A stretch of 64,000 nucleotides of DNA from NCBI GenBank assembly GCA_021789975.1, contig JAJYIT010000003.1, forward strand, positions 1-64,000. Direction: 5' to 3'. The notes under the pieces are model-generated. The model was not told where the DNA came from. It worked only from the letters and a program-made list of their open reading frames with translations, and did no database searches. The position numbers and the translations under genes are program-made. The DNA is from Bacteroidota bacterium. Its GTDB lineage: Bacteria > Bacteroidota > Ignavibacteria > Kryptoniales > JAKASW01. Shown in pieces: positions 24,147-57,888 of the stretch (positions are counted from its first letter, which is position 1; each line of letters opens with the position of its first letter).

Positions 24147-25532
24147 CTATTTGTAGAGAAATCCCCTCTGTATGTAGTACGTCACCCCAACCTGCACACT
24201 ATTGTTGTTTTGAGTACCATCATAACCTACATAATTGAGGTTCTTGTTATCTACATAATTCCACGAATAGGAACCTGACAATGAAATGTTGTCTTCCACG
24301 AAGTAATTCGCCGCAACATTCAGGTTGTCAGTCAGAGTCTTCCTTTGCGCCGATGCGTTAGCGAATAATACATCAAACCCCTCATTGGCTGAGACCACCA
24401 GCCTGTCGGTCAATTCGTACGCATAGCCGATGCTGGCGGTTACCTCGTACTGCTGCTTGACGGGAGAATCCTTGACCAGATTCGGCCCGCCCGACAACGA
24501 TGCGTTCAGATAATACTGTGAATTCAAATCAAGCTGGTGACTGAGGTTCACGTAAACATTCCCAAGCGCGAAAAACTGCTCGGCTATCCTGTTCGGAACA
24601 GGATTCTGGGAGTAGTAATTGTTTAAGTAATTCATCTGAACGTTCAATCCGCCCACCAGTCCTTCATTCCTCATGAAACGGAGTTCACCGGGGACTTCCC
24701 TGATATACGAATCCGCATATTGGTTAAGCCCTTTAAGAGACACGCCGTCTTTTGCAAGAGTAGTCTGGACATCGCCCCAGAAATATTTGTCAGGTCTTAC
24801 GTGAACGTCTGAATAATATCCCTGTCTGTAGAACTGTTGCGCGAGGTCCTCGATAGTGTTCTCGCTCAGATCATGGTTAAGCAAGTTCAGTTGTTTTAGT
24901 ATCTCCTGGAAACGAATCGCCGAGACCACCGATGTCACGTTTCTCATCTTTCCCCAGCCGAAGCCTAGTGAGATAACGTAGTTCTGGTGCTTTGTCGCGC
25001 TGTAAATCTTGTAACGTGTGGTGTCTGAAGCCCGGTTATCATTATAACTTTCGTTGATGTTCAACTGGATGTTCGATCCGACCGAGCAGAATTCCTCACC
25101 ACCTGCCGCATAGTTCCTATAGGTCTCGCCAGCACCCAGGTTGAATCCGTCGGAGTAGTTCTTATTGTAATTGTTTGGTGGGTCGCCGGGTCCTTCGCCC
25201 TGCCAATAGTAGTTTGCGTAATTCCCGGATAGATTCGCACTTACCGACAAGTACATGTTGTCCGATTCCTTCAGGAAGAAGTAACCAGGCTCAAGCCAAC
25301 TTGAAAAGGACCGGCTGTAGCTCAGCGAATTCGACGCACCGACATTGGAACTGGAATACTTGCCCGAGTAAAAACTAAGACTGGAACCAAGCGACAGTGC
25401 GTTCAGCGACGTCTCGGGTACTCGGAATTTTGTGAATAGTGCCGGATCAGCATTGTCCAGGCCGTAAGTTTGCGCCGACAGTGTTCCGGAAATGCAAAGA
25501 GCAAGCAACAGAAATGCGATTGAGAGTTTCAT
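24147..25532 (-). CDS. Predicted outer-membrane beta-barrel protein
   Basis: 461 aa with a signal peptide (about residues 1-20, LLLALCISGTLSAQ). Alternating hydrophobic/polar Tyr- and Asn-rich strands run through the whole length (for example LSVSANLSGNYANYY and QYYLNASLSGG), and the end is aromatic (YIQRGFLYK). No named family is recognised. The strand pattern and lack of membrane helices indicate a transmembrane barrel of perhaps 18 or more strands. Its neighbours (a DUF362 gene pointing toward it and archaemetzincin behind it) give no functional clue. Confidence 0.7.
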   Translation of the reverse strand: MKLSIAFLLLALCISGTLSAQTYGLDNADPALFTKFRVPETSLNALSLGSSLSFYSGKYSSSNVGASNSLSYSRSFSSWLEPGYFFLKESDNMYLSVSANLSGNYANYYWQGEGPGDPPNNYNKNYSDGFNLGAGETYRNYAAGGEEFCSVGSNIQLNINESYNDNRASDTTRYKIYSATKHQNYVISLGFGWGKMRNVTSVVSAIRFQEILKQLNLLNHDLSENTIEDLAQQFYRQGYYSDVHVRPDKYFWGDVQTTLAKDGVSLKGLNQYADSYIREVPGELRFMRNEGLVGGLNVQMNYLNNYYSQNPVPNRIAEQFFALGNVYVNLSHQLDLNSQYYLNASLSGGPNLVKDSPVKQQYEVTASIGYAYELTDRLVVSANEGFDVLFANASAQRKTLTDNLNVAANYFVEDNISLSGSYSWNYVDNKNLNYVGYDGTQNNNSVQVGVTYYIQRGFLYK

Positions 25533-25720: not shown

Positions 25721-26254
25721 TTACCTTGATCCCCGGAATTTCGCTCTGCACTCGGAGCAGAGTTTGTCCGTCTTCAAGTCTATCTCTTCCACTACAGTTG
25801 ACGAATGCATGACACAGAGATAATTGTTGCAGTGGAGCAGGCCGAAAGTATGGCCTAGTTCATGTATGGCTTCCTTCAGTAGTCTCACCTCAAGAAGTCC
25901 TTCGTTCGGCTGAAGACCGTAAAATTCCTCGCGAAGCCTGTGGTATGATACAACCGCAGCTTTTCCTTCAAGCTGGGCTTCTCCGAAAACGTAAGTGAGC
26001 ACCGGTACAAAGAGATCGCCCGAGGTCACGCCCAGAACCCTTCCGTCGAAATCCTCATACATCTCGAGAAGCTCCGAGATAATCATAGTGGAAGAGAATT
26101 GGTTTCTTGAGACGTTGAAAGAGAAAGAGGCGTCGAGTGGGTGCTTCAGTCCGACGCTGACAGGAATCGAAAAGATCTCTTCAAGCGGAGCAACCAGATT
26201 ACCAAGCAAACGCCGATCTGCAGGAGTAATGGCCGCTATTAGGATTGAAAACAT
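25721..26254 (-). CDS. Archaemetzincin-type zinc metalloprotease
   Basis: 177 aa with the archaemetzincin signature. HELGHTFGLLH (His131, Glu132, His135, His141) is followed by C142-x4-C147, a Met-turn (Met149) and a second pair C166-x2-C169, which together form the extra structural zinc site of this family. No signal peptide is present, so it acts in the cytosol. Physiological substrates of archaemetzincins are unknown. It starts three bases after the stop of the sigma-54 regulator gene and so ends the kinase-regulator transcript; proteolytic feedback on that system is a speculative possibility. Confidence 0.9.
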   Translation of the reverse strand: MFSILIAAITPADRRLLGNLVAPLEEIFSIPVSVGLKHPLDASFSFNVSRNQFSSTMIISELLEMYEDFDGRVLGVTSGDLFVPVLTYVFGEAQLEGKAAVVSYHRLREEFYGLQPNEGLLEVRLLKEAIHELGHTFGLLHCNNYLCVMHSSTVVEEIDLKTDKLCSECRAKFRGSR

Positions 26255-26257
26255 CCG

Positions 26258-27619
26258 TCACGGCTTCTTGAGACCATATTTGGATATCTTGCTGTAGAGC
26301 GTCACTCGATCTATTCCGAGGGCCTCCGCGCTTCTCGTGATATTCCAGTTGAGCTTCTCAAGAACCCTTGCGATATGAACTCTTTCCATGCCTGCGATAG
26401 AATCATCTGGTTGGGAATTCCCAGGTTGCATCTGTGAAAACTGGAATGGCAAATCAGAGGAGCGGATTGCAGGCGGCTTTGCCAAAACCATCGCCCTCTC
26501 AATTACGTTTTCGAGCTCACGAACATTGCCCGGCCATCTGTTGGCTATCAGCATACCCATCGCGCCAGGGTCGACGTCCATGGCAGGCTTGTTCATTAGA
26601 GTTGCATACTTTCTTATGAAGTGATTGACCAGTGGAGGAATATCGTCCCGTCTTTCACGGAGTGGAGGGATGAATATAGTAAATACATTCAGTCGGTAAT
26701 ACAGGTCTTCGCGGAAGCTTCCGTCAGTAATCGCAGCCTCCAGGTCACGGTTAGTGGCGCAAACGACCCTAAAGTCGCTCGATATCACTTCATTCCCGCC
26801 GACCCTGGTGAATTGTTTGGTCTCTATAACACGCAGCAGTTGGATCTGCATCTTCTGGCTGATTGTGCCAATCTCATCAAGAAAGATTGTGCCGCCGTCG
26901 GCCATTTCGAATTTGCCTTTACGTCGGTATTGCGCGCCCGTGAACGCCCCCTTTTCATGGCCGAAGAGCTCGCTCTCCAGAAGTGTCTCAGGCACTGCTC
27001 CGCAGTTCACTGTTATTATGGGGAAATATCTGCGCGAGCTGTTCGCGTGGATAGTTCGCGCGACCATCTCTTTTCCTGTCCCGCTTTCACCCCGGATCAT
27101 AACGGTGGTATCGGTCTGGGCAACCGTTCTCGCGAGGTCGACCACTTTCTTCATCTGCAGGCTTTCGCCGACTATCTCCTCGACACCGGACAACTCAGAC
27201 ATTTGCTGACGAAGGCGCCAGTTCTCGTCACTCAGTTTCTTCGTCCTTAACGCATTCTCAACCAGGTGGGTTAGGTGTTCCGGATCTACCGGTTTGGTAA
27301 CATAGTCGAACGCACCTTCTTTAAGTGCCTGCACCGCACTGTCCACTGCGCCGAACGCAGTCACCATGATGATCGCCGCACTCCTGTCGATTTCCTTCAG
27401 CCTCTTCTGCAGTTCCAGCCCATCCATGCCCGGCATCTTGATGTCAAGGAGTATGATGTCCCATGGGCCCTCGTTCATAAGGCTCAACGCCCGGTTTGCA
27501 TTCTCGGCGGCCCCGACACGGTACCCGTCTTCCTTGAACCATTTGCTAAGGGAGTCTCGTACCGAGAGTTCGTCGTCGACAACGAGGATGCTCGGCTTGA
27601 TCTTCTGATTTATAGTCAT
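26258..27619 (-). CDS. Sigma-54-dependent response regulator (NtrC family)
   Basis: 453 aa with receiver, AAA+ and Fis-type domains in order. The receiver has VVDDE and the phospho-acceptor Asp59 in IILLDIKMPG. The AAA+ domain has Walker A GESGTGKE and the sigma-54 contact loop GAFTGAQYRRKG, then GGTIFLDEIG. The Fis-type helix-turn-helix ends NITRSAEALGIDRVTLYSKI. It activates sigma-54 promoters in response to the heme-containing kinase encoded just upstream; the two genes overlap by four bases (ATGA). I looked for -24/-12 elements with GG-N10-GC spacing upstream of the neighbouring operons and found none convincing. Confidence 0.96.
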   Translation of the reverse strand: MTINQKIKPSILVVDDELSVRDSLSKWFKEDGYRVGAAENANRALSLMNEGPWDIILLDIKMPGMDGLELQKRLKEIDRSAAIIMVTAFGAVDSAVQALKEGAFDYVTKPVDPEHLTHLVENALRTKKLSDENWRLRQQMSELSGVEEIVGESLQMKKVVDLARTVAQTDTTVMIRGESGTGKEMVARTIHANSSRRYFPIITVNCGAVPETLLESELFGHEKGAFTGAQYRRKGKFEMADGGTIFLDEIGTISQKMQIQLLRVIETKQFTRVGGNEVISSDFRVVCATNRDLEAAITDGSFREDLYYRLNVFTIFIPPLRERRDDIPPLVNHFIRKYATLMNKPAMDVDPGAMGMLIANRWPGNVRELENVIERAMVLAKPPAIRSSDLPFQFSQMQPGNSQPDDSIAGMERVHIARVLEKLNWNITRSAEALGIDRVTLYSKISKYGLKKP

Positions 27620-29256
27620 TTCCTCCTGCCATCATTCTGTGAGTTTAAGCTAACCGACTCTCCACTTCCCCCCGGATTGCAAGGAAGCGTAATCGTAACC
27701 GTCGTGCCCAGGCTTAATTCCGACTCTACTTTGATATTGCCGTTGTGCCGCTCCACGATACCATGGACAACGGCGAGGCCAAGTCCCGTCCCCTTCCCGT
27801 CCTTCTTAGTCGTAAAGAACGGCTCGAAGAGATGCTCGAGGTCTCCTTTCGAAATTCCTATGCCTGTGTCGACAATCTTGATTTCCACCGACTTCGGTTG
27901 CGTATTTCTGGTCAGTGAAATTTTCAGCTTGCCCCCCTCCGGCATCGCTTCAATGGCGTTGATCTCCAGCGCAATTAGAGCCTGCTCAATCTGCTGTGGG
28001 TCGCAGATCAGCTCTATCGGTTCGCCGCCTCCGATCACTTCCGACTTCACATTATGCACGGCAAGATGATGGGCGATCAGTTTAAGACTCTGCTCAACCG
28101 CTAAAGTGAGATCGCAAGTGCGATATTCGCCGACCTTCTGCCTGGAAAAGAGAAGCAGGTTGTTTACTATGTTCCCGCAGCGTGCTGTCTCATCCGCTAT
28201 CATTCCCAGGTCGGTATCCACTTCGGTCGCGTTTTCCTTGCTAATATTTTCGGCGCGAAGTTTTTTTCTCAGAAGTTTTGCGTAGGCAAGAATACCGGAG
28301 AGCGGGTTGTTGAGCTCGTGCGCCACGCTCGCCGCAAGCTTGCCGAGGGAAGCCATCTTTTCCATCTGGACCATGTTTGACATCGCACTGCGAAGCTCGT
28401 CGGTCTTCTGTTCCACTTTGTCTCCCAACGTTTCCGCCCAATCCGTTAGCTCATTCCTTGCCCTCCCCAGTTCCTCGGCCATCTTGTTGAACGACTCAGC
28501 GAGATCCCCGATCTCGTCAGATGCGTGCACCTTTATCCTGTATTCAAGATTTCCTTTTGTGATCTCATGAGTTCCATAACTCAGCCGCCGTACGGGAATA
28601 TTGACCATTATCCAAATGAACACTCCCGCAAATGCTGTCACACTGAAGACCATTAGGGCTCCCCAGAGATAGGTGGACCGACGTAGCTGCGCCAGGCTGG
28701 CATCCAAACCGGTCAGCGGCAACATTACATCGAGTACGCCGAGAACGGTTTGGCTCTCCGGGTGAACATGACATGCCGCATTATAACATGCTGGTTCATT
28801 CTTGATTGGCGTTATCACACCGAGGACACGGTAACCTTTATGCGATACGAATATGCGTGTGAGTGCGGACTTGCTGTTAGTCGGGAGGGGCTTGCCGGGC
28901 TGGTGGCATGCATTGCAGGCCTCGGCGTTCATGTTAACATAATTTCCAACCTCACCTTTGACCGTCGAGAAAGTAATCTCACCCTTCTTGTTATAGATTC
29001 TGATCGCCTCTATACCCGGTTCCGATCCCAGTGTGTTGATTGTTTGGTAAATATCCTCACGCCTGTTTCGGAGCATGCTGTATCGGGTGGATCTCTTTAT
29101 GAGGTCGCTTGTGCGTACAGCCCAGCCGGTTGTGAAACTCACATACTTCTCCGAATGCCAGTTCAACATGATCGTCGTAAACACGGCAGTCGATACTATC
29201 ATTACCAGCAGGACGATGGCCAGTAGCCTGAACGCCAGGTATTTCGTTACTCGCAT
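27616..29256 (-). CDS. Sensor histidine kinase with two periplasmic c-heme motifs
   Basis: 546 aa. A membrane helix at about 11-31 is followed by a periplasmic sensor of about 160 residues carrying C114-x2-C117-H118 (CNACH) and C157-x4-C162-H163 (CYNAACH). A second helix at about 197-219, HAMP, a HisKA dimerisation helix with H313 in VAHELNNPLSG, and a HATPase domain with LEINAIEAMPEGG and GTGLGLAVVHG follow. The Cys-His motifs predict covalent heme and thus sensing of redox state or a heme ligand. CX4CH is a rarer but known heme site. The gene overlaps the sigma-54 regulator and follows the GcvH/HybAB genes after 176 bases. Confidence 0.93.
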   Translation of the reverse strand: MRVTKYLAFRLLAIVLLVMIVSTAVFTTIMLNWHSEKYVSFTTGWAVRTSDLIKRSTRYSMLRNRREDIYQTINTLGSEPGIEAIRIYNKKGEITFSTVKGEVGNYVNMNAEACNACHQPGKPLPTNSKSALTRIFVSHKGYRVLGVITPIKNEPACYNAACHVHPESQTVLGVLDVMLPLTGLDASLAQLRRSTYLWGALMVFSVTAFAGVFIWIMVNIPVRRLSYGTHEITKGNLEYRIKVHASDEIGDLAESFNKMAEELGRARNELTDWAETLGDKVEQKTDELRSAMSNMVQMEKMASLGKLAASVAHELNNPLSGILAYAKLLRKKLRAENISKENATEVDTDLGMIADETARCGNIVNNLLLFSRQKVGEYRTCDLTLAVEQSLKLIAHHLAVHNVKSEVIGGGEPIELICDPQQIEQALIALEINAIEAMPEGGKLKISLTRNTQPKSVEIKIVDTGIGISKGDLEHLFEPFFTTKKDGKGTGLGLAVVHGIVERHNGNIKVESELSLGTTVTITLPCNPGGSGESVSLNSQNDGRRK

Positions 29257-29432
29257 GGGGGTGCTAACCTTCTACATTGTCCGCGCAAAAACTATGCCGG
29301 TCGCAAAGGCAGTTCTTGCCAGCTTTGCCTGTAATATCGAACAATTTGGAGGACGATGGCGGTTGGGTTGTATTGACGACTATCATTGTCCTGGATTAGG
29401 GAGGGAGCGTGGCATAATTCCGCTCACACAGA

Positions 29433-30266
29433 CTAGATGCCGACAGTAATTAACTTATTCAGAAAAGAGATGTACTTTCGTGTGCCGATAAGATCACTGA
29501 GGTTATTCGGACGCAATCCGCCATCCATGAGAGTGGCACCGAGGGGCGGGACGCCTGCTTCAAGTTCGATCAGGACTTCCTCTTTGAGTTGTCTGAATTG
29601 CTCCTCGAAACGTAAGCGAAGTTGCAACTGACCTTGCAAATTGTCTTCACTCATTTGGGAGTAGTCAGTGGTTATCACACTGACCCATCCTTGTCCATAC
29701 GGGTCGTCGAATACCATCCTGCCTGAGTTTGCAACGGCGGGGTTTACGTCTGTCACCCTGCCGCTGATCGGTGATGGAACCGCCACTGCTCCGTCATTCG
29801 ACGTAATCCATATCAATGGACAGTTCCTTGAGAAGCTGCAACCCGGCTGCAGACAAATCACATTTTCTATTTGCCCCAAGAAATGAGCAGCGTAGAGATC
29901 GAGTCCTATACGATGGACTCGATCTCTCACTCGCTTCATCCATATGTGGTTGCGCGAATACACACGGTCATCGGGTAATGGTACAAACGACGGCATAGAG
30001 AACATATCGTCCACCAGCGATCTGAGCGATGCTCTTGCGGTAGCCACATCTTTGCCGGAGCCGGACATGTCCGGAACATCGCTTCTCTTAGTTGTAGGCG
30101 GAGCGAAGGCGGGCCCGGATTTTCCCCGCATGACTTTGTCAAACGGACAGTCTTCGCACTGGTACTGGCGCTCGCAAAGCTTGTACGAAACTAGTCCGGC
30201 TTCTGCCCAGATACAATTCATTTCACCGCTAGGTATCAGTCTGCCTATCTTCTTATCTGATTCCAT
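29433..30266 (-). CDS. GcvH-like protein lacking the lipoyl-lysine, with N-terminal Cys motif
   Basis: 277 aa. Residues about 98-200 align with glycine-cleavage H protein (RVYSRNHIWMKRVRDRVHRI, IGLDLYAAHFLG, VPSPISGRVTDVN, DPYGQGWVSVI). The position of the lipoylated lysine is Asp158, and no lysine occurs anywhere in residues 142-180, so canonical lipoylation is excluded. The N-terminus has C18 and C31-x5-C37-x2-C40 in SYKLCERQYQCEDCPFDK, a likely metal site. The C-terminus has GATLMDGG (243-250), shared with the other GcvH-like protein of the cluster. It follows the HybB-like gene by 22 bases. It is not part of a glycine cleavage system. Confidence 0.8.
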   Translation of the reverse strand: MESDKKIGRLIPSGEMNCIWAEAGLVSYKLCERQYQCEDCPFDKVMRGKSGPAFAPPTTKRSDVPDMSGSGKDVATARASLRSLVDDMFSMPSFVPLPDDRVYSRNHIWMKRVRDRVHRIGLDLYAAHFLGQIENVICLQPGCSFSRNCPLIWITSNDGAVAVPSPISGRVTDVNPAVANSGRMVFDDPYGQGWVSVITTDYSQMSEDNLQGQLQLRLRFEEQFRQLKEEVLIELEAGVPPLGATLMDGGLRPNNLSDLIGTRKYISFLNKLITVGI

Positions 30267-30288
30267 TGCACCATCCTCACCAAGTTTC

Positions 30289-31581
30289 TTATTTAACCTG
30301 AAATCCGTATGACTGATGCGCTTTCAAGTGACCTCCGTCTCCGACAACTATGACTTCGTAGCCTTCGGCGGGAAAATGCTCTCTCTCTGCAGTTCGCTCA
30401 GGAAATACCGCCAGGTTCTTTGCTGCCCATCCAAATGCAGCGAACCCGACCGCGACAATCATTAGGGTGGTAGATATTTCCATCCAGCTTGGGAAATAGC
30501 CTGAGGTTTGCGGAATGTGGTTGACCGCTACTTTTGATGCTTCCAATAAGTAGTTGTTGGAGTGACGCTCCAGCGAAGTTACACTAACGTTCATCCTATT
30601 CAACACAAAGCCGATCACAGCAAACATACCGCTGTAAAACAAACCGCGTTTGTTCATCCTGACGCTGGGAATCAGAAGCATCGAGATCGGCACCAATACT
30701 CCAATCGCTATCTCGGTCCAAAAGAGCATGCCATCGACATTGAATTTGAACAGATATGGCTCGAGGTGATAATTGAAGATGTCTTCAACTTTCAAAACAA
30801 GGTAGACCGCAAGTGCAACCGCGGTCACTTTCCCAAGCCTGGACAGGATCGGCAGCTCAATCTCTCTATGGAATGCCCGATAACTGAGGAATGATTCCAT
30901 AATGACCATTGCCGGGCCGACTGCCACCGCCGACACGAAGAACAGGATCGGTAGATTGCCGGAGTACCAGAGTGGATAGACTTTTTCCGGCATGATTAAG
31001 TACAATGACCCCAGTGAGGATTGGTGAAGGGACGAGAGCATCACGCCAAGAATCACAAGGGGAATTATAATCTTGTGCACGGCTTCTGATGCTCTGTGCA
31101 TCTTAAAGCGGTCGAACACCATCGGGCTGAATTCCAAAGCGAGCACAGTGGTGTACAACATAACACACCAAGCGAGCTCGAACATCGCAGAATGCGGGTT
31201 CCACATAATTAGCGGATGCCAAATGTTCCATGGCTTCCCGAGATCGAAAAGAAGCGCAAACACGACGAGCCCATACCCGAGGAATGCAGTCAGAACGGCC
31301 GGGCGAGCGATCGGTTTGTAGTAATCAAGATGGAACACATATACAGCTCCGGCGACAACAAACCCACCAGCGGCAAGCCCTACACCGCAGAGCACATCGA
31401 AGCCGATCCAGATCCCCCACGGGAACCTATCACTTAGGTGAGTTGCCGCGCCTAATCCGAAGGCAAACCGGACAAAAGTAGAATATAAACCGGCAGCAAC
31501 GAGAACCAGGAAAACCGCCTTCCAGAATGTCAGATGATGGAACCATGCCTTTATGTTTATCAAGAAACTCTTGTTCTTCAT
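30289..31581 (-). CDS. NrfD/HybB-type membrane quinone-interacting subunit
   Basis: 430 aa with about ten membrane helices. The N-terminal FPWGIWIGFDVLCGVGLAAGGF is the signature of HybB/NrfD-like proteins, which exchange electrons with menaquinone. HPLIMWNPHSAMFELAWCVM and VLSSLHQSSLGSLYLIMPEK also match HybB. No hydrogenase large or small subunit is nearby, so it is not a standard Hyb hydrogenase. It pairs with the HybA-like Fe-S gene 18 bases upstream. The last 40 residues form a soluble tail (EGYEVIVVGDGGHLKAHQSY). Confidence 0.92.
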   Translation of the reverse strand: MKNKSFLINIKAWFHHLTFWKAVFLVLVAAGLYSTFVRFAFGLGAATHLSDRFPWGIWIGFDVLCGVGLAAGGFVVAGAVYVFHLDYYKPIARPAVLTAFLGYGLVVFALLFDLGKPWNIWHPLIMWNPHSAMFELAWCVMLYTTVLALEFSPMVFDRFKMHRASEAVHKIIIPLVILGVMLSSLHQSSLGSLYLIMPEKVYPLWYSGNLPILFFVSAVAVGPAMVIMESFLSYRAFHREIELPILSRLGKVTAVALAVYLVLKVEDIFNYHLEPYLFKFNVDGMLFWTEIAIGVLVPISMLLIPSVRMNKRGLFYSGMFAVIGFVLNRMNVSVTSLERHSNNYLLEASKVAVNHIPQTSGYFPSWMEISTTLMIVAVGFAAFGWAAKNLAVFPERTAEREHFPAEGYEVIVVGDGGHLKAHQSYGFQVK

Positions 31582-31599
31582 TTTGTCTCCAGAATGTTT

Positions 31600-32373
31600 T
31601 CAGTTCCTAGCAATCTTCTTTTCGATATTCTTCCGCTTCAAGTCTTCCTCATACTCTGCGACCTTCTTCTTCCGATTCGTCAACCACCAGAAACCGGCCA
31701 TCAGCGTACTCCCCCAAACGAAATAATCCGGAATCTTCTCCATGATATCCCACGTGTACTTGGGGAGAGCTCTGTCAGGGAGTTTCGATGAGAATCCAAG
31801 GTGGTCGAACTTTACCCCGGCAAGATATATAGCGGAGGTGCCGCCGACTTCAGTGAGCCCGAAAATGTGGTTAACGTAGCTCTTCGGGTTCTCCCGAATT
31901 CTCTTTTTAGCCTCTTCTATCAAATCATCACGGGAACCGAAGATCCGGGCCTGCGCCGGGCACGCCTCAACACAAGCCGGCTGCTTCCCCTGCTCCTGAC
32001 GGGGAAGGCACATGTCACACTTTGTAACTTTCGGATTCGGTTTGTTCCATTGATACTTAGGAATCTGAAAAGGGCATGCCTGGACGCAATACCGACAGCC
32101 CATGCATTTGTTCGCGTCATAGACCACAGGTCCACTCTTGCTCTTAGTGATCGCACCCACCGGACACACCGACGCGCAAGTCGGATCCTCACAATGCATG
32201 CAGAGCCGTGGGACGTAAGCCTCACCATATTGTTGTACCACTGTATTCTTCTCACAGGAAAGCTCATGGACGTCTGTATGCGGGAAGCCCCACCTGTCGG
32301 CGCAGGCGTCCTCGCATGCCATACAGCCTATACATTGGGTTGAATCGACTAGAATTCCCACCTGCTTCTTCAA
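31600..32373 (-). CDS. HybA/DmsB-type Fe-S electron-transfer subunit with C-terminal anchor
   Basis: 257 aa with 16 cysteines in four ferredoxin clusters: C14/17/20/24, C58/61/66/70, C90/93/96/100 and C119/122/134/138. This predicts four [4Fe-4S] centres that wire electrons to or from the NrfD-like subunit. A single membrane helix lies near residues 214-232, followed by a Lys-rich tail. Unlike E. coli HybA it has no Tat signal (it begins MKKQVGILVDSTQCIGC). The cluster domain may therefore face the cytoplasm, or it could be carried across by an unseen partner. Confidence 0.92.
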   Translation of the reverse strand: MKKQVGILVDSTQCIGCMACEDACADRWGFPHTDVHELSCEKNTVVQQYGEAYVPRLCMHCEDPTCASVCPVGAITKSKSGPVVYDANKCMGCRYCVQACPFQIPKYQWNKPNPKVTKCDMCLPRQEQGKQPACVEACPAQARIFGSRDDLIEEAKKRIRENPKSYVNHIFGLTEVGGTSAIYLAGVKFDHLGFSSKLPDRALPKYTWDIMEKIPDYFVWGSTLMAGFWWLTNRKKKVAEYEEDLKRKNIEKKIARN

Positions 32374-32402
32374 TTTGGTACTCCTTGTTCATCTGGCGGT
32401 GA

Positions 32403-33110
32403 TTAATTGAGTTTTGTGTTCAGGTCCGACTCACAAAGGAAGTCATGTTCGAATTGTCTCCACGTTTCCAGGGGCGAGTGTTCCAACACATCATTTACAG
32501 GAATACCACCATCCAGCAGTGTAACTCCGGCAGGGAGCGCAGAGTCGCCACTTTCACCGTTGGGAGCCTGGCTGGCAATAAAGTCGCGAAATCTTTTCAC
32601 CTCCCGTTTCATCCATTCAGCGGCCTCGCGCCCAATCGACAGATGCTTCAATTCATCAGACAGATCGACCGGCTCCAGCGCCACAACCCAACCTGTCTTG
32701 TAAGGTTCTTTTCGTGCACTCCCAGGATGCTGTATTATATCGTTATTCACCGCGATTACTCTTCCTGACACAGGCGAATAGAATGACAAGGCTTTTTCTC
32801 CCTGTCTGATTGAGAATAGTTGTTCGCCTCTGGCGACTTTGCTCCCCAACGACACCGGCGTTATGCCGTGTATCGGGCCGACAATCTTCTGAACGAAATC
32901 GTCGAGTCCTATCCTCGTTGTACCATTTGGAAGGAGCTCAACCCAGGTATGACCTTTTCCGATGAAGTAGCCCTTAGGGATAACAAATCGCGATTTGACT
33001 CCGGCCCCGGCTTCTTGCGCCGATAGGCCTCTCCGCTTTCTCGCGCGGTAGACGAGGTAGTCCACCAATAGGAAAACGGATATTGTAGCGACAACAAATA
33101 GTGCGACCAT
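32403..33110 (-). CDS. Membrane-anchored GcvH-like protein
   Basis: 235 aa from the ATG at 33110, which has GGAGG five bases upstream; the longer frame from 33188 lacks this. An N-terminal helix (residues about 2-21) anchors an H-protein-like domain (GKGHTWVELLPNGTTRIG, FYSPVSGRVIAVN, EPYKTGWVVALEP). In an ungapped alignment with E. coli GcvH, the lipoyl-lysine position is Glu105 and the next residue is Lys106, so modification is doubtful. The C-terminal GVTLLDGG (195-202) is shared with the other GcvH-like protein here. It is the first gene of the HybA/HybB transcript. Confidence 0.8.
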   Translation of the reverse strand: MVALFVVATISVFLLVDYLVYRARKRRGLSAQEAGAGVKSRFVIPKGYFIGKGHTWVELLPNGTTRIGLDDFVQKIVGPIHGITPVSLGSKVARGEQLFSIRQGEKALSFYSPVSGRVIAVNNDIIQHPGSARKEPYKTGWVVALEPVDLSDELKHLSIGREAAEWMKREVKRFRDFIASQAPNGESGDSALPAGVTLLDGGIPVNDVLEHSPLETWRQFEHDFLCESDLNTKLN

Positions 33111-33625: not shown

Positions 33626-34309
33626 CTACGCGGCTAATGCCTCGGCAATTATTTTCACGCCGGAGCTCGTGCCGATTCGAGTGGCACCGCTCCGAATCAT
33701 AAGAACTGCATCGGCATAGCTTCTTATCCCACCCGATGCTTTCACCCCGATGGATTTACCGACCACTTTTCTCATCAATGCGACGTCGGCAGCAGTTGCA
33801 CCCCCTTTGCTGAATCCGGTGGAGGTCTTCACGAAATCTGCTCCTGCACTCTTTGCAAGTACACAGGCTTTCTCTTTCTCCTTATCGGTTAGAAGACAGG
33901 TCTCTATGATTACTTTAACGATCGACAAATCCGGGTGAGCAGCCTCCACAACTGCGCGAATCTCATTCTCAACATAACCGTCATTGCCCGATTTGAGCCT
34001 CCCAATATTGATGACCATGTCGACTTCTCGGGCTCCGTGCGCAATCGCCTCCCTGGCCTCCTGCACTTTTGAATCCGTCGTTGTCGCACCGAGAGGGAAG
34101 CCGATCACCGCACAAACCTTGACTGAAACGTCTCCAAGCGCCCGACCTGCAAGAGTCACGTAAGATGGATTGACACAAACGCTTGCGAAATGATTCTCGA
34201 CAGCTTCGCGACACAACTTTTCAATTTCATCGGGCATCGCTTCAGGTTTCAGTAGGGTGTGATCGATCATCCCCGCGATCATACCCGGAGTAATCTCCTT
34301 GTCACTCAT
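33626..34309 (-). CDS. deoC: Deoxyribose-phosphate aldolase (DeoC)
   Basis: DeoC cleaves 2-deoxyribose-5-phosphate to glyceraldehyde-3-phosphate and acetaldehyde in nucleoside catabolism. It has [30 protein letters not shown], the Schiff-base lysine region [17 protein letters not shown] and [19 protein letters not shown]. 227 aa is normal for the family. Its ATG overlaps the stop of the upstream secreted phosphoesterase gene by four bases (ATGA), an unusual partner that may link external nucleotide breakdown to intracellular sugar use. Confidence 0.96.
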
Positions 34310-36882
34310 TGGCTGCCTCCCTGATCCCCCATCAATTCATGGTACAATTGTTTATCAGAAGTCATCAGCTCAGACGAAGGCTCAGCTGGAATGTATGGAG
34401 AGTAGTCCGGTTTCTTTGTGAATATCCCGAACATCGGAACCGCAAGGGCATCCCCAAGATTGAGAGGTTTCAGTCCAAGGATAAGTTCGATAGTCCGAAG
34501 CATACTAATCTGATCGTAACGGTCGTGTACCACGATGTCCCGTTTCACGTATGGGCCGGCCGCAAGCGCGACGGTCCTGGTGGCATCGACATGGTCTGGT
34601 CCGTTCTGTGCGTCATCCTCTTCAACGAGTACCAGGCTGTTCTTCCAGATGCTGCTGTGTGAAATTGTCTTTAGGAAAAGGCCGAGAGCCGCATCGTTCT
34701 CCGAGACAAGCTGGTACGGATTCGGATAATTCGGATTCGTTCCTGCCGTGTGGTCGTTCGGAAGCCAGATGTATTCGAAGCTAGGCACGATGGAATGCTG
34801 CAGCTGATATTGAAAGTCTTCTCTCCACCCCTCGAAGCGTCTAAGGTCGGAGTATTTCAAATCCCACGAGTAGTAGTTGAAAGCGTAGTGGAAAAGGAAT
34901 TCTGCGAATCTCTCCCTGAATTTATCATTAGTTCTAAAAGCATCTAACAAAGAATTATCGCCTACAAAGATCCTGGATATTTCGCCTCCGAAGGACTCAG
35001 TACGAAGAAGTCCAGAGATTTCACTTTCTGAATGAGAGTTCTTGTAATACTTCGGTGCAAATTCCGAGAAATCTCTTCCTCTGTCAACCGACCATGCCAG
35101 GCGCACGCTTTGGTCGTAGAACTTCTTTGAAAGTGGGCTGTTGACTCCAAAACTTTCCGCAATAACTCTGTATGCCCCTGTCGAAAGGTAATAGGGTTCT
35201 CCGTAGATCCTGTAAGAGACTCTCTCCGCGTTCAGATCATCCCATATGTAGGCAGGCGAGAAAACCGCCGGTACCGTTCCGAAGGGATAGCCGCGATATC
35301 TGCCGGAGTAGTCAATGTTACCGAGGAGCTCTAGGAACGGACTCGCATATCCGCTGGTGGTGAAACTGTGACCGAGCACGCTGATCTCACCGTCCGCAAA
35401 GTAATTGTCAAGATCGACAAATTCCCCGGCAATCTTGTGGGCGTTAGGCGTAATTGGTTCGCCGAATAGAGTGAGCGTGGAATCACCATTACCTTTGCCA
35501 AGATCGCCGAGTACCTGGTCGTAGGTCCGGTTCTCACGTATGAAATAGAACACATGTTTTATCGGCAGCTTCAGGCCTTCTGCCGGACTGTATAGTGGAG
35601 AGCCGTCTTCCACTTCCTTTGTCCATGAGGACAGGTGAGAAGGGATTGCGTTTTCCGGTACAATTGAGAGTGCACCTTTGAGCAGGTTAAGGACATAATC
35701 GGGTCCGCCTCTTCCTTTGATAGGCTGCGGCCCGTTGGGATTCGGTCTCCGCGCATGAATACCCTTGGCACTTAGTATCAGGACCTTGCCTCCTCCAACA
35801 ACTACATTGGTCGTGTACCACCCGGCAGGGATGAAGCCGAGCAGCTTTCCCGAAGCTAAGTTTAGAACAGCCACGGCGTTTACCGTCGCGAGACTGACGT
35901 AGATTCGGTCACCGGAAATAGCACAGGATGTCGGGGCGGCCCCGTATTTCATCCCTTTTTCAGAAAGACTAATCCTCCTGACCGTCCTGTCTGAAACACA
36001 ATCGACCACGGTTATCTCGTCTGAATTCTGATCGACAACGTACAGGTATTTCCGGTCGACGGTCATGTTCCAGGGACCTTTACCGACCTTCAGAGACTTC
36101 TCCAATTTCAGATCCTTCGAAAAAACATCCAGTTTGTCTTCACCAAGCACGGAGACAAATAACTTACCGCTCGAATAAGCTACTGCATATGGGAAGTAGC
36201 CTGCATCCGCCTCCTTCACAACACTGCCGGTTTCTAAATTGAGGATCGCAATCTTACCTTTTCCGTATTGCTTAGCCGCGTTTTCGGAAGTCAGATACAC
36301 GACTGCGAGATGGGTTTCATCGATCGGGCAGATTCCTGCGACATAACCATTGAGCTTGAAAGTCTGTTTAACATCGAAGTTCTTGTCTATCATGTAAACC
36401 TGGGAATCGTACCCACCGCTGACGTACAAGTTTCCATCAGGCCCAACGCAAGCCGATGGAAATATCGAATTCAGCTTTATGGTTTTGACCACTTCCGCGC
36501 CTTCGACATCGACGACTGAGATTTCCTGCGGCTCTTTGTAATAGTCTCCGTTGTTCAGGACGACGAGTTTGTCATTGTAGAAAATCGCGTCATAGGGAAG
36601 TCTGCCCAGTTCGACCTGCGTACCTGCCGGGCGAATCTTCCACCCTGTGGGAAGAGCTAACTGATCCGATTCCGACAATTGCGAACGAAGATGCGTCTCC
36701 CTGAGATACGGTTGAATTGAGGAGTAGGGAGTCCCTTTGGCAAAAGTCCACAGTTGGCTGTTCAAGATATGCTCTGTGCCGGGCACATCGAAACCCTCAT
36801 TGTCGGTTTGCGCCCAAGAGGATACGCTGATAAGAAGCGCTGAGAGAAAAAGGACAAAAGAAAGGAGTCGATGAGGTTTCAT
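34306..36882 (-). CDS. Secreted YVTN beta-propeller fused to a phosphoesterase
   Basis: About 858 aa from the ATG at 36882. The start is chosen because a signal peptide begins there ([20 protein letters not shown]) and AGGA lies upstream; the frame from 36984 has no signal at its front. Residues about 70-400 form a YVTN-type propeller ([39 protein letters not shown]). The C-terminal half is a PF04185-type phosphoesterase ([53 protein letters not shown]), with the Glu-Asn-Thr and Asp/His metal residues present. It likely hydrolyses phosphate esters in the periplasm or outside, and it is coupled to deoC. Confidence 0.9.
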
Positions 36883-36964
36883 TCTTACCATCCTGCTGTT
36901 TGTGTGGTGTTTAATGTGAACAAAGATAGCCCCCGTGGGGGAGATTAAGCAAGAGGTAAGGGAA

Positions 36965-37011
36965 GTTACCTTGCGAAGGTGCATGAAGTGTAGTCACGTT
37001 CGCAAGGTAAC
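36965..37011. terminator. Perfect 13-bp inverted repeat downstream of the DUF4097 operon
   Basis: GTTACCTTGCGAA (36965-36977) pairs exactly with TTCGCAAGGTAAC (36999-37011) around a 21-base loop, starting five bases after the stop of the minus-strand DUF4097 gene. The following minus-strand sequence is pyrimidine-rich (TTCCCTTACCTCTTGC). It probably ends the ECF-sigma operon ahead of the phosphoesterase gene. Confidence 0.55.
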
Positions 37012-37015
37012 CAGA

Positions 37016-37819
37016 TCAGTTCTCGCTACCTGATTTCAAAATTCTTATCGACCCATTCACCACAGACAGGGTTATGCTCGCCGCGCCATTTCCAAGTTTT
37101 CCGTTTAGAGAATCCCCGACTTTCACAAACGATTCGGGATGCTGCTCGTTGTAAGTTTCCAGCCCAAATTCGTTCGAGATACTTCCAGTCGTCACCCTTG
37201 CTTTTATGCTTGCGGCGGAATTCTGCGGCAAAGTCACAACCAGTGGGCCGTTTACTGATTCCATCTTCACATCCGCATCGGCGGGCAGAACATTGAAATC
37301 GGCGCTGACCTTTCCGTTCACCGTCCTCAGTTCACATCCTTGTTCCAGACCTGAAGCTTGTATTACTCCGTTTACAGTAGAAGCAGTTACTCGTCCTTCG
37401 ACACCATCCACGGTTATCTTCCCATTAACTATCCTGACATCATGGAGGTTCGCCTTTCTTGGCACGGTTATAGTGTAATCGACACCCAAGCCGGAGCCGT
37501 GGTTGTTGTTTCCTTCATCCGGATATTTGGTAGCTATGTTCACAGAACCGTCGGTCGAAGTCACTTCGATATCCAGGTCTTTGAGTTCTTCCTTGTTGTC
37601 GGCATATTTCACAGCATCGATCTCTACCTCATTCCTGTCCCATACCTTTATCACTGCGTTTCCGTTTACGTTTTTCAATACAACTGTGCCGTTTGATTCC
37701 AGCTTAAACGACTTGTGGAATTGCCCGGTTACACGCGCGTAGGCCGTCGTGCTCAGCGCCAGGCAGATTGCCATAACCAGAGTAATTCCGGATTTGCGAT
37801 TTCTTTTCATGAGATTCAC
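37016..37819 (-). CDS. DUF4097-family exported protein
   Basis: 267 aa with a signal peptide (SGITLVMAICLALSTTAYA) and a DUF4097 beta-helix-like region of short repeats (FKLESNGTVVLKNVNGNAVI, VRIVNGKITVDGVEGRVT, TVNGVIQASGLEQGCELR). These proteins are often encoded beside ECF sigma factors and envelope-stress regulators; their function is not established. It is the fourth gene of the sigma/anti-sigma operon, 14 bases after its paralogue. Confidence 0.88.
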   Translation of the reverse strand: MNLMKRNRKSGITLVMAICLALSTTAYARVTGQFHKSFKLESNGTVVLKNVNGNAVIKVWDRNEVEIDAVKYADNKEELKDLDIEVTSTDGSVNIATKYPDEGNNNHGSGLGVDYTITVPRKANLHDVRIVNGKITVDGVEGRVTASTVNGVIQASGLEQGCELRTVNGKVSADFNVLPADADVKMESVNGPLVVTLPQNSAASIKARVTTGSISNEFGLETYNEQHPESFVKVGDSLNGKLGNGAASITLSVVNGSIRILKSGSEN

Positions 37820-37833
37820 TTCTACACTCCTTT

Positions 37834-38976
37834 CTAGTTTTCGTGACTACCCATCTTCTTTACGTATATGCTTCCTGATGTCGTGCGGAGATCAATCTTC
37901 TGACCGCCGCCGTTAATAACTATTTCCGCCTTTCGGTTCCCAAAGTTTCCGATGTCTCCCTGCAAAGTCATCGGGAAATCAGACTCTATCGAATTGTCCG
38001 ATGCCGCACCGAAAACTTCAGCTTCTATCGTGGCTCTGGCATCCGCGGGCAAATACAGGTAAACATCGCCGCCTGTCGAAGTCAGCCGGCTGGTACCGCT
38101 TCCTTTTGGAGTAAGACCGGCTTTAACTGTTCCGCCGGACGATATGGCATGAACTGAGCCGACCGCCCTCTGGATATCGATATCTCCTCCGGACGTATTT
38201 GCATCGACGTTTCCACCCCCCGATCGCATGGATATGTCTCCGCCTGAGGTTGATATAGCGGCACTCTTACCGACGTTACCTACGGTGACATCACCGCTCG
38301 AAGTGGAGACGTGGAGTTCACCGCCTACCCTACCCACGTTCACGTCGCCTCCTGCGGTATAAGCTTTCAGGTTTCCACCGACGGTGCCTGTCTTTATATC
38401 TCCGCCAGACGTAGACAACTCAAGGTTTGCCCCAGCTTGCTCAACCTTTATATCACCTCCTGAGCTGGAGAAACGCGAATCACTCGAAACATGGTTTACG
38501 GTAACATCGCCTCCGGAGGTTTGGCCTTCGACTTTGCCGTTTACATCATCAACATGAAGGTCGCCACCGGAAGTTGTAAGACTGACTGCGCCTGAAATTG
38601 CACCGGATGTCGAGATATCACCTCCAGAAGTTGTCAGTTCCAGATTGAATTTGCTCGGGACGTAGAAGTCGAACTTTACATCGCTGCTGCTGCTCCACAA
38701 TCCTCCTCTCGACCTGTATTCAACCGTGACGGTATTTCCGTTTTGTTCGGCTTTGACTCGATCAGCGTCGTCGCCGATGTTCTCAACGTTCATCTGGACT
38801 TGTGACTTGTTCCAAACCCGTACCAGGATATCGCTCCCGTCAACACGGACGACCAGGCTTCCTCCGTCCGACACATTGAAATCTTTCTGCAACTCGTGCG
38901 GAGCTTCGCGCGCCGGGACCCTTGAGGCCGTGAGCAACAACACGAACATCACTACAATCGAAGAAAGCTTTTTCAT
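37834..38976 (-). CDS. DUF4097-family protein with TSGGD beta-helix repeats
   Basis: 380 aa with a signal peptide (SSIVVMFVLLLTASRVPA). From about residue 110 to 300 the motif (T/S)SGGD or a close variant recurs about every 18-19 residues (LTTSGGDIST, LTTSGGDLHV, GQTSGGDVTV, LSTSGGDIKT, ISTSGGDISM). This fits one turn of a right-handed beta-helix per repeat. It is probably periplasmic or surface-attached. It lies directly behind the anti-sigma gene and is likely a target of the sigma factor through the shared operon. Confidence 0.9.
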   Translation of the reverse strand: MKKLSSIVVMFVLLLTASRVPAREAPHELQKDFNVSDGGSLVVRVDGSDILVRVWNKSQVQMNVENIGDDADRVKAEQNGNTVTVEYRSRGGLWSSSSDVKFDFYVPSKFNLELTTSGGDISTSGAISGAVSLTTSGGDLHVDDVNGKVEGQTSGGDVTVNHVSSDSRFSSSGGDIKVEQAGANLELSTSGGDIKTGTVGGNLKAYTAGGDVNVGRVGGELHVSTSSGDVTVGNVGKSAAISTSGGDISMRSGGGNVDANTSGGDIDIQRAVGSVHAISSGGTVKAGLTPKGSGTSRLTSTGGDVYLYLPADARATIEAEVFGAASDNSIESDFPMTLQGDIGNFGNRKAEIVINGGGQKIDLRTTSGSIYVKKMGSHEN

Positions 38977-38977
38977 T

Positions 38978-39943
38978 TCACATCTCCTTATACTCTTTCA
39001 ATATATCCGCTGCCTTTGTCCTGACATAAAGGTTCTGATCCGACTCTATCCTCTGTCGAAGGACTTGAAGTACCTGCGGGTCGATTTTGTTTTTGTCGGA
39101 TTGAGCATTATTGGACAGCTCTTTCTCCGAAAGAATGTTGATAGCAGCGACGCGCATTCCTGGATTCGGGTCCCTCTGTAGTACATACAGAAGAGCATCT
39201 TTGGTCTTGCTGTCAAACTTCATCTTAGCGAGGGAAAGCAACGCAGCGCGCCGAACTCCGGGATTGTTGTCTGACTCGGCTGCCTTGATCAGAGCATCTT
39301 CAACATCGCTGTCCGGCCTTTCGACGACCGAATTGAGCATATCGACTGTCTTGATGCGAGTTCCGGGGTTGTCGGAATTCACGAGTGCGTATGCGAGTAC
39401 CTTCTGAACGTCACGGTTATCAATGTCGCTTCGAACCTGATAGTGCTTCACCAGATTGAAGGAAAAATCGATTTCACCAGTGCGTGGACCACTCGAAGCA
39501 AATCGGACGTCGCCAATCGAGACATTGTCTGAGCCTTGAGAGACCATGCCTGCTATTGCCGAGAGCTCAGATTTTTTCTCCCACCCGCTTGAGCCAAAAA
39601 ACAGGTAAGAAGAGGCGGCACCGAGAAGGAAGACTCCCAATCCCACCGTAGCCACGGTAAGTCTTGGGAAGCTCGCAAATCCATAACCGCGGCTTGTCTC
39701 TCGTATACGATTCACATCCTTCAGCTCATTTCGGAGTGAAGCCCGCATTAAGGGGAGCCGGTTCTCTGCCGTTGCCCGGCCGCTCGCCGCAACGCCGGTC
39801 GGTGCCATTCTGACAGTACGTTTGGACAGCCGTCTGCATTTTTCACAAGTTAGGAGATGAGTTGATAAGACTTTCCTTTCTGCATCGCTCAATTCCTCAT
39901 AGACTGACAGGACCGCCAGCTTCTCATATTTTCTGTGAAACAT
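38978..39943 (-). CDS. Membrane anti-sigma factor with zinc finger and HEAT repeats
   Basis: 321 aa from the ATG at 39943, which has AGGAG eight bases upstream; the upstream GTG and ATG at 39952 and 39949 are too close to that site. The cytosolic N-terminus has the anti-sigma zinc-finger motif HLLTCEKCRR (H-x3-C-x2-C). A membrane helix follows at about 96-117 (VATVGLGVFLLGAASSYLFF). The periplasmic part contains HEAT-like repeats (NPGTRIKTVDMLNSVVERP, NPGVRRAALLSLAKMKFD, NPGMRVAAINILSEK). It should sequester the sigma factor encoded 71 bases upstream. HEAT repeats are an uncommon sensor domain for this class. Confidence 0.88.
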   Translation of the reverse strand: MFHRKYEKLAVLSVYEELSDAERKVLSTHLLTCEKCRRLSKRTVRMAPTGVAASGRATAENRLPLMRASLRNELKDVNRIRETSRGYGFASFPRLTVATVGLGVFLLGAASSYLFFGSSGWEKKSELSAIAGMVSQGSDNVSIGDVRFASSGPRTGEIDFSFNLVKHYQVRSDIDNRDVQKVLAYALVNSDNPGTRIKTVDMLNSVVERPDSDVEDALIKAAESDNNPGVRRAALLSLAKMKFDSKTKDALLYVLQRDPNPGMRVAAINILSEKELSNNAQSDKNKIDPQVLQVLRQRIESDQNLYVRTKAADILKEYKEM

Positions 39944-40014
39944 TCTCATCACTCCTGGTCGATTTTATTATCTTCCACCATGAATCCAATAACCGATATC
40001 TCTCGTCATCTGAT

Positions 40015-40599
40015 TTAAGATTCTTCAAGTAAATCTTCCAGTTGAACCTGCAGCCGTCTGACCGCATTGAACATGTGCTTCTTCGCAGTACCTTCAGTGC
40101 AGCCGACCATAACGGCAATTTCTCTTAGCTTGTACCCTTCATAATGTTTCATAGTGAAAACTATTCTCTGCATGGGCGACAAACTCGCGAGTGCGGACTC
40201 GATGTTTCGTGCAATCTCGTTTCTCATGAAGTCTGCCTCCGCCGAATTATCGGTTGATGGATATGGAGCCTCGGCTGTCGTACCATTCCCTTCCCGCTCG
40301 CACTGAAAGTCATCCACCAAGCGCGCTTCTCTGCTTTGTCGGATTCGGAATGTGAGGCAGACATTAACAGCGATGCGATAAAGCCACGTGGAAAACTCGC
40401 TTCTGAATTTGAATTTCCGGATTGCCCTGTAGGCGCGTAAGAACGTTTCCTGATATATGTCCTTAGTATCATCTGAGTTCCTCGTGTAGGAAAATGCCAG
40501 GGACAATACATGACGGTCGTATCTTTCGATAAGCTTTTCAAATGCCGAATCGTCGCCAAGCTGTGCTTGTCTTATGAGCTTATTATCCTCGGAGGACAT
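40015..40599 (-). CDS. ECF RNA polymerase sigma factor
   Basis: 194 aa with region 2 (DDTKDIYQETFLRAYRAIRKF, FRSEFSTWLYRIAVNVCLTF as separate motifs) and region 4 (LSPMQRIVFTMKHYEGYKLR, EIAVMVGCTEGTAKKHMFNA). It directs transcription of envelope-related genes and is controlled by the downstream anti-sigma factor. It is the first gene of a four-gene operon ending at 37016. The linker is rich in Glu, Asn and Ser, as usual. Confidence 0.95.
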   Translation of the reverse strand: MSSEDNKLIRQAQLGDDSAFEKLIERYDRHVLSLAFSYTRNSDDTKDIYQETFLRAYRAIRKFKFRSEFSTWLYRIAVNVCLTFRIRQSREARLVDDFQCEREGNGTTAEAPYPSTDNSAEADFMRNEIARNIESALASLSPMQRIVFTMKHYEGYKLREIAVMVGCTEGTAKKHMFNAVRRLQVQLEDLLEES

Positions 40600-56770: not shown

Positions 56771-57888
56771 CTACTTCCCGATCTCATCCTCCAATGCTTT
56801 TAGACATAAATTAATATTCTTCTCGTTCGAAGTATATCCCATGATGCCGATCCTCCAGATCTTACCTGCGAGCTGGCCAAGTCCCGCGCCGATTTCAATG
56901 CCGTATTTTTCCAACAGATGGTTTCTCACAGCTTCTTCATTTATGCCATCAGGAACCACGACGGTGACCAGCTCCGGCAGACTGGCATCTCCGTTAACAA
57001 ACGTGTTCAGGCCGATTTTCTTGAGCCCGGCACGAAAAATTTCAGCATTTCTTTCGTGACGCGCCCACGCATTTTCTAATCCCTCCTCATGCACAAGAAG
57101 AAGCGCTTCGTGGAGACCGTAAAGGGAGTGTATCGGTGCGGTATGGTGGTACGTGCGTTTAGCTCCTCCCCAGTAACTCACAAGAAGCGAGACATCGAGG
57201 AACCAGCTCTGCACTTTCACCTTCCGATTCTTCACGAATGCAACGGCGCGGTCACTGAAAGTGATCGGTGAAAGCCCTGGAGGACAGGAGAGGCACTTCT
57301 GAGTGCCTGATAAACTACGTCCAATTCCCATTCATCCACTTTGACAGGGATCCCACCGAGAGAGGTAACGGTATCCGCAATAGTCAGGCAGCCGTATTTG
57401 CGTGCCACCCTGGCAAGCTTTGCAATATCCGATTTTGCGCCGGTCGATGTCTCAGCGTGCACAAATGTTGCCAGCTTGATATCCTTGTTCTCAGCAAGCA
57501 CCTCATCGAGCGCTCCCGGATCAATCGGTTGTCCCCAGGCTGCTTCTACCACGACCGGTGTACCACCATGTCTTGCGACCATCTCCTTAATCCTGCCCCC
57601 GAAAGCGCCGTTGATGCAGACGGCAACCTTCGTACCCGGCTCTACCATATTCGCCACGGCCATCTCCATTCCCGCTGACCCAGGGCCGGACACCGGGAAT
57701 GTCACTTCGTTCTTCGTAAGGAAAGTGTCCCTGAGTAAAGACTTGATCTCATCCATCAGACCGATGAATGCGGGGTCGAGGTGACCAATCGTCGTGCCCG
57801 CCATAGCCTGCAGCACACGAGGGTGAACATTGGATGGGCCGGGACCCATAAGAATTCTATTGGGAGCGTGGAAGGAATTTTGTTTCAT
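56771..57888 (-). pseudogene. Alanine-glyoxylate / serine-pyruvate type aminotransferase, one-base frameshift
   Basis: Class V PLP aminotransferase similar to AGXT and serine-glyoxylate transaminases. The first frame (57888 to about 57310) carries MGPGPSNVHPRVLQAMAGTT, FPVSGPGSAGMEMAVAN and HAETSTGAKSDI and ends in VDEWELDVVY. The second frame (from about 57310 to 56771) resumes exactly with SGTQKCLSCPPGLSPITFS, whose Lys binds PLP, and continues to GAGLGQLAGKIWRIGIMGYT. The break is at TTTATCAGG (57306-57314), consistent with loss of one T. Both halves are fully conserved, so this is a recent mutation or an assembly error. The intact length would be about 372 aa. Confidence 0.88.

Follow-up and report, generated by a model that had tools for sequence, protein, structure and literature searches.

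A conserved NrfD-type redox locus with non-lipoyl GcvH-fold proteins and a two-component system in a Bacteroidota bacterium

Known relatives and the layout of the locus

The membrane complexes of the Hmc and Hyb types share a four-cluster iron-sulfur subunit with a C-terminal helix and an NrfD-type quinone subunit with ten transmembrane (TM) helices. The same core plan is found in QrcABCD, which in its canonical form consists of four subunits and no GcvH according to the published account (PMC13059093). The association of a GcvH fold with an electron-transfer complex is known from another context, the lipoate-binding protein LbpA of the Hdr-like sulfur oxidation system (PMC6067878). Here we describe a locus in a 64,000-nucleotide stretch of a Bacteroidota bacterium from the class Ignavibacteria (assembly GCA_021789975.1, contig JAJYIT010000003.1, positions 1 to 64,000; hereafter the window), in which a pair of Hmc/Hyb-like genes lies between two genes for GcvH-fold proteins. 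We consider it somewhat more probable than an even chance that this locus encodes a cytochrome/menaquinone oxidoreductase whose GcvH-fold proteins serve in the cytosol as adaptor or regulatory subunits, controlled by a redox two-component system, and do not act as lipoyl carriers.

Four intact, co-directional open reading frames (ORFs) on the minus strand, termed GH4, FeS, NrfD, and GH1, are separated by 29, 18, and 22 bases, as had already been noticed in a first-pass annotation of the sequence. That annotation delimited the core correctly and missed that the operon continues beyond position 29433 with genes for a histidine kinase (HK), a response regulator (RR), and an archaemetzincin (AMZ), which are conserved along with the four-gene core and belong to the module:

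32403..33110, minus strand: GH4, 235 aa; ATG start with GGAGG ahead; N-terminal TM helix (residues 1-22), GcvH fold with Glu at the lipoyl lysine position, helix, C-terminal DGG tail
31600..32373, minus strand: FeS, 257 aa; TTG start; HmcB/HybA-like four-cluster ferredoxin subunit with no twin-arginine translocation (Tat) signal; C-terminal hydrophobic helix, then RKKK
30289..31581, minus strand: NrfD, 430 aa; HmcC/HybB-like quinone subunit with ten TM helices
29433..30266, minus strand: GH1, 277 aa; N-terminal four-cysteine (Cys4) motif C-x12-C-x5-C-x2-C, GcvH fold with Asp at the lipoyl lysine position, C-terminal DGG tail
27616..29256, minus strand: membrane histidine kinase with HAMP, HisKA, and HATPase domains; periplasmic CxxCH (residue 114) and Cx4CH (residue 157)
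26258..27619, minus strand: NtrC-type response regulator with receiver (REC), sigma54 activator, and Fis HTH domains; 4-nt overlap with the kinase gene
25721..26254, minus strand: archaemetzincin zinc protease with intact HExxHxxGxxHC...CxM...CxxC motif

A protein search with GH1 in 61 related genomes found relatives across the genus and the class. Of 66 loci sampled in the class, 32 have the order GH4-FeS-NrfD-GH1; many of the others were fetched for two related modules described below (B and C). The full order GH4-FeS-NrfD-GH1-HK-RR-AMZ was found in 28 of the 32. The loci L158 and L159 contain the four-gene core without the regulatory genes. This synteny rules out a chance neighborhood, and the first-pass interpretation, which depended on the GcvH-like genes being conserved beside the HybAB-like pair, thus holds in this respect. 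Elsewhere in the phylum, matches outside the class look like canonical GcvH only, and a genome-contig scan detected relatives in Desulfobacterota/Deltaproteobacteria, Geobacteraceae, Gemmatimonadota, Nitrospirae, and Calditrichaceae.

GcvH-fold proteins that lack the lipoyl lysine

The assignment of GH4 and GH1 to the GcvH fold, which had been proposed from the sequence, was confirmed by profile and structure comparisons. Both proteins exceeded the Pfam GCV_H cut-off of 22.2 bits (GH4, 69.2 bits, 3.9e-19; GH1, 55.5 bits, 6.6e-15), and their AlphaFold models, with mean pLDDT values of 85.4 for GH4 and 80.4 for GH1, resembled solved H-proteins. The T. thermophilus H-protein was the best PDB match of GH4 (TM-score 0.93, normalized to the target), and GH1 reached TM-scores of up to 0.91 with the same normalization. 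While fold and Pfam family are thus shared with GcvH, both proteins differ from it by the absence of the lipoyl lysine and by additional elements, which are the TM helix of GH4 or the Cys4 head of GH1, a helix, and the DGG tail common to both. The two proteins scored only 56.5 and 50.5 bits with the canonical GcvH family TIGR00527 (cut-off 115.85). No segment of GH4 is more conserved than its TM helix, and the four cysteines of the GH1 head are invariant; the previously noted C-x5-C-x2-C motif correctly captured the last three of them and lacked the first. The head matched no Pfam domain and may represent a Zn or Fe-S site.

In the alignment, the lipoyl lysine position is occupied by Glu in GH4 and by Asp in GH1. 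Among 184 relatives, 169 likewise lack the lysine; the other 15 have a lysine at this position without the usual E-x-x-K context. This speaks against the carrier role that had been considered for the GcvH-like proteins. An attachment of lipoate as in LbpA could be advocated on the basis of the common fold and the HdrA/HdrB/HdrC-type genes that adjoin the Desulfobacterota relatives, but the consistent loss of the lipoyl site leaves almost no probability for it, and we rejected a lipoyl-carrier role. GH4 and GH1 are not expected to bind lipoate, they do not qualify as members of the LbpA/sHdr type, and no sulfur-oxidation genes were noticed in the window. A function in glycine cleavage was ruled out as well, as the same genome contains a canonical GcvH with lipoyl lysine, followed by a GcvP-like ORF, on a separate contig (C79). 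The first-pass annotation was right that the module has no gene for a hydrogenase, a molybdoenzyme, or glycine cleavage in its vicinity.

The iron-sulfur and quinone subunits

FeS contains 17 cysteines, of which 16 are in the four cluster motifs; the previously given number of 16 is right for the motifs and one short of the total. The Hmc and Hyb families gave the best profile matches to the core, with scores well below the curated NCBIfam cut-offs: FeS reached 237.6 bits with HmcB (NF045715, cut-off 420) and 210.8 bits with HybA (NF008134, cut-off 263), and NrfD reached 321.7 bits with HmcC (NF045714, cut-off 550) and 282.8 bits with HybB (NF008133, cut-off 450). As all four scores are below the cut-offs, the FeS-NrfD pair is related to these equivalogs without being a member of them. 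In contrast to Hmc and Hyb, there is no HmcA cytochrome or hydrogenase beside the pair, and the two GcvH-fold subunits are additional. The operon also differs from QrcABCD, as it contains neither the QrcA cytochrome nor QrcB.

NrfD/PsrC-type quinone subunits were defined by the Pfam NrfD gathering score, at least eight TM helices, and the quinone-site residues. NrfD belongs to this group, with 83 bits (4e-23, cut-off 25.8), ten TM helices, and the conserved residues. Its N-terminus is predicted to be inside, with a charge pattern as in relatives that have a Tat-exported FeS protein. It retains the quinone- and proton-path residues known from QrcD/HybB (positions matched by eye), which are described as important in Qrc/HybB in the account mentioned above (PMC13059093), and the equivalent of QrcC Y113 (CRYC) is present in all 38 readable FeS proteins without Tat signal. 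A sequence search for a solved structure of NrfD found none. Together, the ten TM helices, the orientation, the retained quinone and proton residues, and the Y113 equivalent make it probable that the core is a functional quinone module whose site faces the periplasm. In this sense, the earlier idea of a quinone-redox module with H-protein-fold subunits is supported, and the overall interpretation given with it is supported in part.

The membrane side of FeS needs consideration, since HybA and HmcB carry a Tat signal and the FeS protein of the window does not. An in-frame stop codon lies 18 nt upstream of its start, and the protein is leaderless across the whole clade. One possibility is that FeS leaves the cytosol together with a Tat partner encoded elsewhere; the other is that it stays in the cytosol, held by the membrane-anchored GcvH protein, in a cytosol-facing version of HybAB. 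Such an inverted complex would suit the missing Tat signal and the fact that FeS genes without Tat signal directly follow a TM-type GcvH gene in 44 of 49 cases, as compared to 1 of 7 FeS genes with Tat signal. However, NrfD has the same orientation as in relatives with Tat-FeS proteins, the FeS tail is still positively charged behind its TM helix, the shared Tyr of the quinone site is retained, and module C (see below) combines a Tat-FeS protein with a TM-anchored GcvH. We therefore regard the inverted complex as unlikely; the predicted orientation and the tail charges favor co-export. FdnH of formate dehydrogenase-N is exported together with its Tat partner, and FdnH is the top PDB match of FeS. 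The inversion is a question of topology and would be compatible both with GcvH-fold proteins acting as regulatory subunits and with a purely structural role for them.

GcvH-fold proteins on other cores and proposed control by a two-component system

The same GcvH family, with the DGG tail in common, recurs on other electron-transfer cores, and we therefore distinguish the window type (module A) from a Qrc-like module B, a 13-haem/REC-GcvH module C, and a Desulfobacterota HdrA type (module D). These parallel contexts, like the receiver fusions and the absent Tat signal, had escaped the first-pass annotation. In module B, from the same class, non-lipoyl GcvH proteins are encoded at both ends of a Qrc-like menaquinone reductase, together with a divergent HK-AMZ-RR set. 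QrcA passed its cut-off in this module (231.8 bits, cut-off 180), QrcB reached 325.7 of 440 bits, and QrcC reached 368.5 of 400 bits. Module C has a fixed set of a Tat-FeS protein, NrfD, a 13-haem cytochrome, a kinase, and two REC-GcvH proteins, which was found in 12 of the 12 loci fetched for it. Both GcvH proteins of this module combine REC and GCV_H (Pfam) in one polypeptide with no DNA-binding domain, and the phospho-site residues of the receiver domains are conserved. The larger fusion (TM-REC-GcvH-tail) has the plan of GH4 with an inserted receiver, and the smaller one (REC-GcvH) is built as if the receiver stood where GH1 has its Cys4 head. The GcvH domains are assigned to the cytosol on the basis of these receiver fusions and of the positive charges behind the GH4 TM helix. 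In module D, the GcvH family occurs with HK-RR-AMZ, and HdrA-type flavoproteins were found in 24 of 45 loci, the Desulfobacterota frequencies resting on 80 loci from the genome-contig scan. In two loci, GcvH is fused to an HdrC-like ferredoxin domain, with HdrA- and HdrB-like genes adjoining (L113:7067-8161 and L110:7076-8167).

Genes for 19-haem and in some cases also 16-haem cytochromes are close to the REC-GcvH module in L146, L147, L155, and L157, which is suggestive of extracellular electron transfer. NrfD cores are not always accompanied by GcvH: the genome of the window also has a Qrc-like set (contig C72) and an ACIII-like set (contig C71), and no GcvH-like gene was found in the fetched stretches around them. 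The former (L143) consists of a five-haem cytochrome, a Tat-bearing 734-aa subunit, FeS, and a membrane subunit (QrcC, 272.8 bits).

Barrel-sandwich hybrid domains serve as structural parts in RnfC and NqrA, and GH4 and GH1 could similarly form a constitutive scaffold, with the kinase, regulator, and protease controlling only expression and turnover. The loci in which the four core genes stand alone, the high conservation of the GH4 TM helix, and a weak structural and profile echo of RnfC/NqrA in the GcvH-fold proteins would agree with this. On the other hand, both GcvH subunits of module C are fused to receiver domains, which points to a regulatory rather than merely structural role, and the occurrence of these proteins on cores as different as Qrc, HdrA, and the HdrC fusion, along with the receiver fusions, is more in keeping with an adaptor than with an invariable structural component. 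We consider the purely structural role, which had also been suggested initially, rather unlikely. Alternatively, FeS-NrfD could read the redox state of the quinone pool and inform the kinase and regulator through the GcvH proteins, without carrying bulk electron flow, as the window operon has no catalytic subunit or cytochrome and is constantly linked to the two-component system. This is very unlikely in view of the complete Qrc-like or 13-haem electron routes in modules B and C and the conserved quinone and proton-path residues of NrfD.

The CxxCH and Cx4CH motifs of the kinase, which are putative haem c sites, are both present in 60 of 61 kinases of the same type. The archaemetzincin (peptidase M54) exceeded the NF033823 cut-off (162.4 versus 145 bits) with its full motif, and 93 of 96 relatives also have the metal-binding motif. 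The neighboring family f2 has a second archaemetzincin, whose motif is degenerate (L140:6345-6914), with no GcvH or kinase gene adjoining. Sigma54-type sites were detected in 12 of 81 upstream regions of these genes, where 0.54 were expected. Two further features of the window lie within or next to the operon:

29284..29299 (approximate), minus strand: weak sigma54-like site CGGCATAGTTTTTGCG, ~43 nt before the kinase gene start
24147..25532, minus strand: unannotated ORF of 461 aa; signal-like stretch at the N-terminus

The sigma54-like site has a chance of about 5% in shuffles and is not convincing alone. The 461-aa ORF is probably outside the module, its linkage being found only inside the genus. 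Upstream of the module, DeoC and a phosphoesterase/beta-propeller gene (33626-36984) are present in most genomes of the genus and not in other families. At 37016-40599, genes for a sigma factor, a putative anti-sigma protein, and two proteins of repetitive, secreted type stand in a row. An alanine-glyoxylate-type aminotransferase at 56771-57888 appears to be divided between two overlapping ORFs in different frames, probably by a frameshift in the assembly.

In the explanation that we favor, the module would encode a regulated NrfD-superfamily membrane oxidoreductase with an HmcBC/HybAB-like core, moving electrons between menaquinone and a redox partner in the periplasm whose gene lies elsewhere; the direction of this flow is likewise a prediction. 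GH4 and GH1 would be lipoate-free cytosolic accessory subunits that bind NrfD from the cytosolic side and link the complex to signaling, with GH4 tethered via its single TM helix, probably packed against NrfD. The kinase would sense the periplasmic redox state via its dihaem-type c domain and phosphorylate the sigma54 regulator, and in module C the kinase probably phosphorylates the receiver domains fused to both GcvH subunits. The archaemetzincin might process or remove a subunit.

Several points weigh against this explanation. In the window, neither a cytochrome nor a catalytic subunit is encoded beside module A, a periplasmic FeS would need an unlinked Tat partner or another route, and there is no convincing sigma54 promoter before GH4 in the window. 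The Cys4 head of GH1 is lost in family f2 and thus is not essential everywhere. The co-occurrence of the GcvH-DGG family and archaemetzincin in the 61 genomes (both in 35, only GcvH-DGG in 1, only archaemetzincin in 2, and neither in 23, including genomes with only module C), which in itself speaks for the explanation, is a count that ignores shared ancestry. Finally, the GcvH-NrfD interaction and the activity of the complex are predictions from sequence.

We found no published description of this module or its GcvH-fold subunits, and no link of archaemetzincins to respiratory complexes or two-component systems, in the open-access literature, an absence that is not proof. To our knowledge, NrfD-family respiratory complexes are not known to be switched by a phosphorelay. 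While an NrfD-type redox complex is of a known kind, a control subunit of GcvH fold is possibly new. More tentatively, and with less than even confidence, the lipoate-less H-protein fold may be a general docking and control module, such that phospho-signals of haem-bearing kinases act directly on GcvH-fold subunits and gate NrfD- or HdrA-type electron flow post-translationally, with the archaemetzincin as a reset or maturation protease. With GcvH-fold output response regulators beside a quinone/13-haem set, it becomes possible to test whether anaerobic or extracellular electron flow is under direct control. Moreover, the module offers a biological setting in which archaemetzincins may act, and it accounts for a group of lipoate-less proteins annotated as "GcvH".

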